A DNA stretch of 64,000 bases from Lentimicrobiaceae bacterium (GTDB taxonomy: Bacteria; Bacteroidota; Bacteroidia; Bacteroidales; P3). The stretch covers positions 1-64,000 of the forward strand of contig JAFLTI010000005.1 of the NCBI GenBank assembly GCA_022510485.1. The letters run 5' to 3'. Under the pieces are notes generated by a model. It did no database searches. It saw only the letters and a list, made by a program, of their open reading frames with translations, and had not been told where the DNA came from. Shown one piece after another: positions 1 through 7,200 of this stretch; position 1 is the stretch's first letter; the number at the start of each line of letters is the position of its first letter. A program made the position numbers and the translations under genes.

Positions 1-12
1 GGGTCTTTGGAA

Positions 13-128
13 CGGCAAAAGCCAAGCTTGCTTGGCGATACGCTCCGGCGCGGCAGAGACAAAGCTTGCTTTGGCTATGACGAGATGGAGCGTATCGTCA
101 GCCACGTTTACGTGGCTGGCTTTTGCCG
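13..128. repeat. Cloverleaf-like nested inverted repeats
   Basis: A closing stem pairs 13-24 with 117-128 (12 bp, perfect; CGGCAAAAGCCA). Inside lie a hairpin at 21-36 (GCCAAG/CTTGGC), a long arm pairing 36-46 with 87-97 (11 bp, perfect), a small hairpin at the tip of that arm at 60-73 (CAAAG/CTTTG), and a hairpin at 101-116 (7-bp stem GCCACGT, loop TT). If the closing stem uses only its outer 8 bp, all arms can form together. The structure lies downstream of the PAS gene stop on the minus strand. It is not a tRNA: no anticodon arm or T-loop is present. It could be an extragenic palindrome, a recombination site, or a folded transcript end; the sequence does not decide. Confidence 0.75.
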
Positions 129-173
129 AGGCGCCCTATCTTCAACGGAGCGAAGCGAAGTTAAAGATCCCTC

Positions 174-4270: not shown

Positions 4271-7200
4271 TTAGCGGCGAACCAACTTAAAGACCTCAAC
4301 CCTGTCTTTTCTGATAAAACGCAGGTAATAAACACCCGAAGGCTCACGGCTCAAATCAAGACGGCAACTCTGCCCCTTGGCTATTTCCCGCTCAAGCAAC
4401 TTGGCTCCAATCGGAGAAAACACATCTACTTTTGCCGCTACCGAAGATTCTATCACCGCATATCCGTCGGTGGGATTGGGGTAGACTCTAAATACCTCTT
4501 CTTGTTCGGATTCAATGCCTGTCTTTTTTGCAAAATCGGCATAAATCGTTACGTCTTCTTTAAGTTCGTAACCACGCAAGGCTTTGGTGTCGCCATCCCA
4601 CCACGCAACAAAATGATAGTCGTTATCGGCTTCCGCGTCTAAAATCAGCGTACTGCCTATCGGCAAAGAATCTCCCGATTTCACGATTTCCTGACCATGC
4701 CTTACCGTTATTGTACCTCCGGGATTCTGCTCCATACGAACAATAGCCGTTTCGACTTCAAGTTTTTCGTCTGCCTCGAAAGTGGCATAAATCTCTACGT
4801 CTTCTTTAAGTTCGTAACCACGCAAGGCTTTGGTGTCGCCATCCCACCACGCAACAAAATGATAGTCGTTATCGGCTTCCGCGTCTAAAATCAGCGTACT
4901 GCCTATCGGCAAAGAATCTCCCGATTTCACGATTTCCTGACCATGCCTTACCGTTATTGTACCTCCGGGATTCTGCTCCATACGAACAATAGCCATTTCG
5001 GGTTCGGGTTCAGGATCGGGATCAGGCTTTTCGTCTGCCTCAAAAGTGGCATAAATCTCTACGTCTTCCGTGAGTTCGTATTCACGTATCTCTTCGGTAT
5101 CTCCATCCCACCACGCAACAAAATGATAGCCCTCTTCGGCATCCGCCAACATATATATCATGCTGCCTTTAACTACCTCGTCGCCGGATTCCACCGCCTT
5201 ACCGTCTGCATATTCCACTTCGATAATACCGCCCTGCCGCTGTTCTATCCGCACCACTACCGTTTCGGGTTCGGGTTCAGGCTCTTCCGCCTCATCTTCT
5301 GCCTCTAAATATAGCAATCCCGCCAAGGCATCCACTTTGCCGTATCCCCATGTAGTATTCGGATTGGTACGTGCTTCAAGCCCTGTATAACTATCGTTGG
5401 TTGCCGTTTGGGAAAGCAATTTTTTAAGTTTGGCTATATTCAGCGTAGGGTCTTTTTGTAGAAAAAGCGCCACGATACCGGCTACGGCGGGAGAAGCCAT
5501 AGAAGTACCTTGTTCAAGCACCCAAGGATAAGTTTTGCCGCTTAGCGTGGTGTTGGCAATTAAACTGTTTGCACTTATATTATTTTTATTATAACTGTTG
5601 CCAGACGAAACAATACCCGCACCGGGAGCGGCTATATCGGGTTTGTTGACACCGTTTGCCAAAGGTCCCCGACTGGAAAAAGAGGATATGTCATTCTCGT
5701 CTCCAACAGAAGAAGGATTTCCGTACCAGTACGTCTCTCCCGTAGAAATCTGCCACGTAGTGCGTGTGTTGTATGCCGCCACAGACAGCACGCTTTGAGA
5801 GGCGGCAATGTTGGCACTGTGCGTATATTCGGTATTTCCTCTGTCAAATTCGCCCGATTGGAGCCAAGCATGGATGCCTGCCTCGTCATTTACCGGCTGA
5901 AACTGCACCATTATATCGTAGCCTTGTCTAATGGCTGTAGAAGCCTCCAACGATATGAGTACGTGCGGTTGCCCATTATTTTGATAGGTTTCGCAATCGG
6001 CATTGACAACAGCCAAAACCGTATCTCCGCTCTTGATTTCCTTTCTGCCTCCCGTTCCGTTAGACTGATAAGTAGCATATGCCACCGACTGGCTGTTTGA
6101 CATTACCGCGACAAAAACTACAAAATGCTTTTTGTTACTGCTCCAACAGTCTATATAGGTGCTTTGCGTATTATCCAGATCGAGATAGGTGGAAGCCGCA
6201 TTATTTGTTGTTGTACTTGCCTGATAATGCAGTTTGGTATCGCCGCTGTTGCCTGCGCTGGCAACTAACAGAAAGCCGTCGCGCACAATCTTGTCGCAAG
6301 CCAAATCAAAGGCATCCGTTCCATCGTGAGGTCCTATATTGCTTCCTAAGCTCATGTTTACCACACAAGGCTTGTTTTGAGCGGCAGCATACTTTTCTAT
6401 ATAGGAAATACCGTCAAGGATACCCGAGTTATACATATTGGTCGCCACAAAAATCAAATCGCTGCCGGGCGCCATTCCCTTGTAAACGGTTCCGGCACCC
6501 GAACCGCCAGCCGTTCCAGCCACATGGGTAGCGTGCGTTCCATAATCTTGATCATGGGCAGCGGCGAGAATGGCATCCGTGCCTGTATATTCTGCCCCGT
6601 AACTATAGCCGGAAGGTTTGCTTCCCGACGCGCTCTGATCCCATACCTTCTTGACCCGATAGGTAGATTTATTGGCCGGGTCGGAATAAAAGGTGGGATG
6701 GGTGTAATCGAAACCCAAGTCGATAATGCCCAACAAAACGCCTGTGCCGTCGTAGGCTTGTTTGAGACCGTTGCTATTATAACTTTCCTGTACCCGATCC
6801 ACTTTATTTGCTTTACGGCTCTTGTCGTTATGCAGCTGATTTTTCAAAGAGGCACTGATCCGCACAACTCCTCCGATAGCGGTAATCTGCGTGGCTGCAT
6901 CCAGCGGAATAAGCCCTGTGCAGATACCTTCAAGCCGGGTTTGCACCTCAAATCCCAAAGCCTCGGCTTGTACCAGCACATCTTCTCCTTCATATTCCAA
7001 GAAAACGGGCAGATAAGCCCGGATTGTCTTGGCTTTTGAAATCTGCTGCATGCCGAAATCGTCTTTAAGGCGTTGTTCCAGCTCGCCGCTTTTGGACTTT
7101 TGATTTTGGTATTGCCTGTAAAGGGATAGAAAAAGCCTCCCTTCGGCATTCCATTTGTCGATACCCAGTATCGGGTCTTCTCCTTTTTCATTCTTTTCTT

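Follow-up and report, generated by a model that had tools for sequence, protein, structure and literature searches.

The window analysed here, a stretch of 64,000 nucleotides from a Lentimicrobiaceae bacterium, opens with a dense set of nested inverted repeats, which raises the question of what kind of structure this is. An earlier note on this DNA regarded positions 13-128 as a cloverleaf that may be a transposable palindrome, a recombination target or a structured RNA. As judged from sequence comparison, it is probably a palindromic mobile element of the MITE/REP/Correia-like kind, which targets promoters and grows by nested insertion. The transposable palindrome is thus the best supported of the three options, as indicated by dispersed copies, by presence or absence at orthologous promoters and by direct repeats of the target box; a recombination target may be another option for the element.

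Fold and parts of the palindrome

The five stems within 116 bp that had been described, two of them perfect and 11-12 bp long, were recovered, the five-stem form being the fold of the - strand. Positions 13-24 and 117-128 form a perfect 12-bp inverted repeat (the outer arms), and a perfect 11-bp pair, consisting of CGATACGCTCC (36-46) and GGAGCGTATCG (87-97), is paired in the folds of both strands. Further hairpins are located at 51-82 (imperfect), at 100-117 and, as a small one present only in the - strand fold, at 23-34. Folding both strands, as the earlier note had proposed, yields a stable branched structure on each, namely a three-way junction on the + strand and a five-stem cloverleaf on the - strand. 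The minimum free energy as RNA is -63.9 kcal/mol for the + strand (shuffled mean -39.2, sd 3.4, z -7.30) and -59.2 kcal/mol for the - strand (z -7.83), and 0/200 shuffles were as low in either case, in agreement with the expectation that random sequence rarely reaches such a fold.

The element exceeds positions 13-128. Its right edge lies at about 168, behind a terminal hairpin (138-168) that holds inverted and direct copies related to the -7 promoter box (ATCTTT). Its left edge lies beyond base 1, because the window starts at the first base of its contig (C45) and the element is therefore cut; the other end, with the promoter core, would be found on contig C53. The parts are as follows.

1-168, no strand assigned: in-window part of the dispersed palindromic element (22 own-genome matches including itself; C53 positions 5170-5224 identical to 1-55; covariation)
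13-24, + strand: outer stem, left arm, partner of 117-128 (inverted-repeat search, + strand fold)
23-34, + strand: small side hairpin 1, CAAG CTTG CTTG (- strand fold only; homologous hairpin in other copies)
36-46, + strand: central variable stem, left arm, partner of 87-97 (+ strand fold, covariation)
51-82, + strand: apical hairpin with mismatches at every third position, like the short signature hairpins (+ strand fold, hairpin mismatch tally)
87-97, + strand: central variable stem, right arm (+ strand fold, covariation)
100-117, + strand: side hairpin 3, AGCCACG TTTA CGTGGCT (+ strand fold, covariation)
117-128, + strand: outer stem, right arm (inverted-repeat search)
125-132, - strand: one strand of the family signature, GCCTCGGC read towards clpX (sequence, signature pattern)
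138-168, + strand: terminal hairpin ATCTTCAAC...GTTAAAGAT, at the clpX-distal end (sequence, fold of 139-168, family comparison)
174-518, - strand: gene of a small PAS-domain protein, outside the element (PF08448, E 9.2e-5, at its cut-off)

A dispersed family

A blastn search with window positions 1-140 against the 2.0-Mb genome of origin gave 22 matches at 16 places, including the query itself; the copy at L002 gave 28 matches in its own genome and further ones in 7/60 relatives. The promoter end, searched as a 19-base pattern with at most 2 mismatches, occurs 40 times in the genome of origin and at 2-44 places in each of the 13 genomes of the genus, whereas the control, the same pattern read backwards, gave 0 matches in eleven of them and 1 in two. 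Looking for copies in the full genome and in relatives, another check proposed beforehand, thus brought to light small, gene-less palindromic copies, which these matches show to be dispersed at many loci. From the promoter-end matches listed, 96 loci were retrieved and 122 sites examined in them. Many of these share the signature CTCGGCA-arm-loop-arm-TGCNCTCGRCTT, in which the arms of the enclosed hairpin differ by copy yet are complementary, and at a number of sites within the 96 loci the promoter half alone is left.

Across the bacterial family, the signature is present in 61/149 sampled genomes from 3/12 genera, a number that includes a few chance-looking matches (some in G116, G143 and G162 show no self-complementarity); the reversed-pattern control gave 0 in all 149. 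Signature counts are high in G002, G009 and G134 and low in G003 and G008. Genome G134 has 26 matches, the most in its genus (g3), and the 23 of them that were examined share the unit GTT...CGTTTTCTCGCCTCGGCATAG...CTCGGCTTAWCGAAAACGTT in mostly different flanks. These copies (L199-L218), some of which stand in tandem, represent a second class without a -7 box. A possible 8-bp direct repeat, ATAGCGTT, was observed at one G134 locus (L204).

A search of named genomes returned 20 stretches, several in unrelated phyla, and the latter are taken for chance matches. Among viral contigs the signature search returned at least 120 stretches. Of the best 25 of 80 by fold energy, three look real and the other 22 chance-like; a viral origin was rejected. 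The three are IMG/VR contigs with real-looking signature palindromes (L276, with GAAGTTAC and GTAACTTTG, L297 and L307), which would represent phage carriage or misbinned host DNA.

Larger nested palindromes, CGAAGCCCC...CTCGGCCATG...GGCRCTCGGCTTAATCGGGGCTTT, were seen beside the promoter class at L185, L148, L149 and L153 (G009, G001, G002), and seem to be a further repeat type of similar design. The near-identical branched copies L113 and L122 are each followed by similar sequence, ACGGAGAGRTAG...CCGTTGAAAGC...GCAGAACCTCGAATTGAAA, which gave no Rfam match at gathering score and is possibly a duplicated RNA gene. The family itself is real and widespread, and it is apparently undescribed in the literature searched, as the top-ranked results contained no description of this palindrome family.

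Compensatory changes and conserved mismatches

The pairing was evaluated on ten branched copies of the genome of origin (the window, L043, L045-L048, L053, L055, L113 and L122), against a manually defined structure and leaving out shorter, longer or truncated copies. Standard pairs occupy 95.4% of 415 cells, compared to 83.4% in shuffles and 29-51% with slid partners. Changes on both sides occur in 20 of the 43 pairs and amount to 54 double-change cells vs 18.3 in shuffles, counts which are not probabilities because related copies are not independent. One of the five measures, further pair types, was not above shuffles (33 vs 30.8, with 106/500 shuffles as high). Most double changes are carried by the central stem (14/24 pairs of its helix), whose alignment columns 29-38 and 77-86 are paired in 9-10 of the ten copies, with both partners changed in 9/10 pairs. 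Pairing in the outer stem reaches 92.2%, with 6/9 pairs invariant, and the homologue of the small hairpin at 23-34 (helix 2) is paired in 90.0% of cells. Unaided, RNAalifold predicts the central stem and two side hairpins with 20/40 pairs doubly changed, and does not predict the outer stem. The compensatory changes asked for by the earlier note are thus present, and they show that the arms are kept complementary.

Some mismatches are conserved. In a tally of the short signature hairpins of the fetched loci (67 distinct ones, at 93 places), with positions counted inside GCA/TGC, position 1 is mismatched in 50 and position 4 in 51, T.C accounting for 46 and 34 of these, respectively, while positions 2, 3, 5, 6 and 7 are Watson-Crick pairs in 53-61 of the 67. 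As these mismatches persist while the arms vary, they argue against mere homogenisation of the arms and for recognition of a folded strand, and suggest that a folded single strand may be what the mobilising enzyme recognises.

The promoter end

In the direction of the gene, this end has the sequence TTTG-N20-TATCTTTG and fits the consensus of sigma-ABfr, described as TTTG near -33 and TAnnTTTG at -7 (PMC7366714, PMC12632263). The motif TAnnTTT lies at most 14 bp away from 105/133 core sites (96 loci among the matches listed), so that the promoter consensus is at the gene-nearest end, a Correia-like trait. Among the core sites with sufficient flanking sequence, an ORF of at least 60 aa starts within 150 bp of 112/129, compared to 60/122 on the opposite side, under a lax ORF rule for both. 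These counts show that in most copies of the promoter class the gene-proximal end overlaps a consensus-type Bacteroidetes promoter, the -33 TTTG lying inside the palindrome, followed by element sequence as spacer and then by the -7 box. The element end would accordingly be active as a promoter, as we infer from this layout. The genes at promoter ends include clpX, enolase, leuS, fabD, dnaG and ruvB (names read from translations), and tmRNA also neighbours a copy. Elsewhere in the window there are six consensus promoter matches, four of them ahead of an ORF or tRNA, and all of their spacers are unrelated to the element.

The assignment of clpX follows from an overlap of 55 bases: the last bases of contig C53 (5170-5224) are identical to window positions 1-55. 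Contigs that meet at a repeat commonly share identical ends, and C53 presumably adjoins C45 at the element, bringing in clpX. Note that contig C9 also matches window positions 1-64, with 95% identity. If C53 follows, the window copy would lie between the PAS gene and clpX, and its C53 end seems to merge into a promoter core (TTTG-N20-TAnnTTTG) that precedes clpX. The PAS gene that had been named as the neighbour of the cloverleaf does adjoin it, as the upstream neighbour of clpX in the same direction, but the promoter end presumably faces clpX, which lies outside this contig.

The PAS-clpX order is kept in G006, G007 and G010, where the PAS stop and the -7 box are separated by 21-31 bases, compared to about 210 in the genome of origin (G000), the latter value assuming the C53 junction. 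A simple empty site at clpX was rejected, since G006 retains a promoter-core-like half, and is thus not a clean empty site, and G007 and G010 contain the strip CCTCGGCAAAATC. This strip may be a deletion remnant, and the short clpX versions may be what is left of reduced elements, instead of sites that never had one.

Contig breaks in this MAG often fall on or close to element copies (C45:1, C53 end, C18:78, C27 end, C3 end, C66:10, C47:32, C59:111, C58 end), and the copy numbers are therefore probably lower bounds. On C9 of the same genome, L049:1600-2100 contains an array of short units resembling CAAAAGCCAARCTTGTTTAGSTCAGGGTCTTKGGAAYGG, parts of which are matched by window positions 1-36.

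The position of the promoter also bears on the option of a structured RNA, either an independent one or one that acts at the mRNA 3' end of the PAS gene upstream, for instance in processing or stabilisation. The very stable fold and the compensatory changes would suit such an RNA, as would the frequency of G-U pairs, which a manual count in the ten-copy alignment puts at 16 of roughly 396 paired cells for the + strand. However, the most conserved flank is a promoter, and the element precedes the -7 box of the gene at whose promoter it sits, so that it would not be transcribed together with clpX. At gathering score, Rfam identifies only two tRNAs in the window, both elsewhere than the element, and a known Rfam RNA family was rejected on the lack of any such match on the element. 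With E<=1, eight related loci gave tmRNA as a neighbour and weak matches elsewhere, the sole match on an element being an animal microRNA family (E 0.27, 26 bits, compared to a gathering score of 90.5). An RNA element thus appears less likely than a mobile one, and we consider it quite improbable.

Presence, absence and repeats of the -7 box

Orthologous promoters were compared within the genus. Enolase was found in 12/13 genomes, with its upstream region readable in 11 (that of G008 is cut by a contig end). Six of these 11 are without the element (G007, G010, G005, G001, G011, G004), whereas the branched form is seen in G000, differing versions in G012/G003 and in G009, and pieces in G002. 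FadD was found in 10/13 genomes: its promoter region carries the branched form in G000, a simple hairpin in G010 and, in G007, a remnant that looks like a partial deletion, and no element was seen in the remaining 7/10 (G005, G009, G011, G001, G002, G004, G012). At ruvB, a simple hairpin in G007 corresponds to the branched form in G010. These comparisons show orthologous promoters in related species that lack the element, which would hence be mobile.

A conserved promoter with a regulator-binding palindrome, that is, an extended operator common to a regulon of housekeeping genes, would leave the end pattern with its promoter spacer in 13/13 genomes, and the retention of the promoter half alone at a number of sites might be explained in the same way. 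Such an operator is very unlikely, though, considering that the promoter core is separated from the opposite signature by anything from 42 to 222 bp, that the palindrome is present or absent at orthologous genes, and that the class 2 copies examined end in AACGTT, without a -7 box.

Mobility by insertion would be expected to leave a trace at the target. An exact copy of the local 7-base -7 box is located at the far end of 24/54 outermost units and absent from 30, the shuffled mean being 12.3 and the maximum 19, with 0/5000 shuffles reaching 24; such direct repeats might correspond to the target-site duplication of MITEs. Three loci (L161, L163, L165) were dropped from this test as orthologous duplicates. 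The exact 7-mer test was a second attempt, after an automatic box choice that had picked wrong boxes (25/49, shuffled mean 18.2, 1/2000 as high). Boxes other than TATCTTT have a direct copy in 7/20 cases vs 0.89 expected. Three of these seven (L130, L172, L178) lie in tandem arrays, the direct repeats of L044 and L147 border sequence unlike a further unit, and L116 and L118 may be read either way.

The adjacent inverted arm likewise resembles the local box, with a mean of 5.81 bp compared to 4.96 for boxes from other loci of the same genome (79 sites; 0/500). It might therefore be asked whether there is a mobile element at all, or whether the palindromes arise locally at promoters by template switching at quasi-palindromes, the -7 region being copied to the inverted arm and the arms kept matched. 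Apart from the resemblance of the inverted arm, this proposal would account for short tandem arrays holding the local box sequence, and template switching is an established route to homogenised inverted-repeat arms (e.g., PMC7202029, PMC8604942). On the other hand, unrelated loci have similar cores (CTCGGCA...TGCNCTCGRCTT) and similar long branched arms, the 23 copies in G134 have a common unit in mostly different flanks, and the mismatches at positions 1 and 4 stay uncorrected in most hairpins. A purely local origin is thus unlikely, and template switching may instead keep the arms matched after insertion. At L147 the direct copy reads TATTTTT and the inverted arm is still GAAGATAG, a mismatch which suggests duplication of the box at insertion and later matching of the arm, perhaps by template switching.

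Proposed mechanism and search for the mover

According to the favoured reading as a mobile element, insertion would occur at the TAnnTTTG -7 box, which would be duplicated in the process, and the element would bring along a correctly spaced new -33, which would keep the gene expressed. Later spread would proceed by tandem duplication and nested insertion of further palindromes, the latter turning a hairpin of about 43 bases into the branched form of about 120 bases, and the folded single strand would be recognised by the mobilising enzyme. If this reading holds, the element inserts at promoter cores of housekeeping genes (clpX, enolase, fabD, dnaG, ruvB) and leaves a consensus promoter behind, and would therefore escape selection and rewire expression. 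The signature occurs in three genera of one uncultured Bacteroidales family and the arms covary strongly, which makes the question of which enzyme moves transposase-less palindromes directly testable.

The search for an autonomous relative covered the Y1 transposase and tyrosine recombinase families. Neither Y1 transposases (PF01797) nor matches to a subclass-2.6-like query were found in any of the 13 genomes of the genus, and both searches were also negative in G134, despite its 26 signature matches. In another signature-carrying genus, 10/12 genomes tried contain Y1 genes, G134 and G170 being those without. Twelve of the 16 listed Y1 places were scanned for the signature; 11 had none, and the single match at L226 lies in coding DNA and looks like chance. 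A thirteenth place (L197, on C25 of G111) lies about 580 bp from signature palindromes, and the gene there (L197:354-911) is flanked by a different repeat of its own, CCGGATTGAAAATCC / GTCAGATTGCAAATCTG. By its NHLH and YIHQNP motifs we read it as apparently subclass-2.6-like, and together with its repeats it possibly represents a separate REP/RAYT pair. A RAYT as mover is not supported, given the lack of Y1 genes in the 13 genomes of the genus and of flanking signatures at the Y1 loci examined in the other genus. Of the traits of such systems, the imperfect hairpin is present, here with conserved mismatches, and a flanked Y1 (HUH) transposase in the genome is not. Of those of MITEs, dispersed gene-less copies at unrelated loci are found, and a plain terminal inverted repeat was seen in none of the copies examined.

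At E<=0.001 the genome of origin has only two tyrosine recombinases, probably XerC and XerD, and what we take to be the attB core of CTnDOT, GTANNTTTGC, contains the -7 box seen at the element. A far-reaching scenario, to which we attach little credence, would have a gene-less element homing to -7 boxes, recognised as a folded strand via its mismatches, with the TAnnTTT-complementary outer arm taking part in target choice, and mobilised in trans by one of the host's tyrosine recombinases, for example Xer. Such an element would behave as a promoter-preserving parasite similar to an integron cassette, which builds cloverleafs and arrays by inserting into itself.

Comparison with known systems

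CTnDOT itself is a large conjugative element with genes. The likeness to the CTnDOT/IntDOT system consists in the presumed attB core, which includes the -7 box of the element, whereas the element is gene-less and its genome has only the two tyrosine recombinases mentioned. The REP/BIME repeats associated with RAYT (TnpA_REP) are extragenic imperfect hairpins in many copies, with a Bacteroidetes subclass 2.6 noted for "atypical secondary structures" (PMC6006769). The element resembles them as a multicopy extragenic imperfect hairpin, but the genus is without a Y1 transposase in 13 genomes, and the subclass-2.6-like gene of G111 is flanked by a different repeat.

The CREE of Neisseria are small, gene-less palindromic repeats, dispersed and often 5' of genes, which terminate in inverted repeats, insert at TA in most cases and can create a promoter at the gene-nearest end (PMC2649163). 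The element shares with them small size, lack of genes, palindromic design, dispersal, location 5' of genes and a promoter at the gene-nearest end; it differs in that its target is apparently the -7 box, a plain terminal inverted repeat was not observed, and no sequence resemblance is evident by inspection. The BOX elements of Streptococcus pneumoniae are composite and modular, the number of internal folding modules being variable (PMC3049150), a design shared by the element, whereas, judging from that description, the nested arms varying with compensatory change and the end forming a promoter core set the element apart. Taken together, the element appears to work in the manner of Correia or BOX elements, but with the -7 box as its apparent target.
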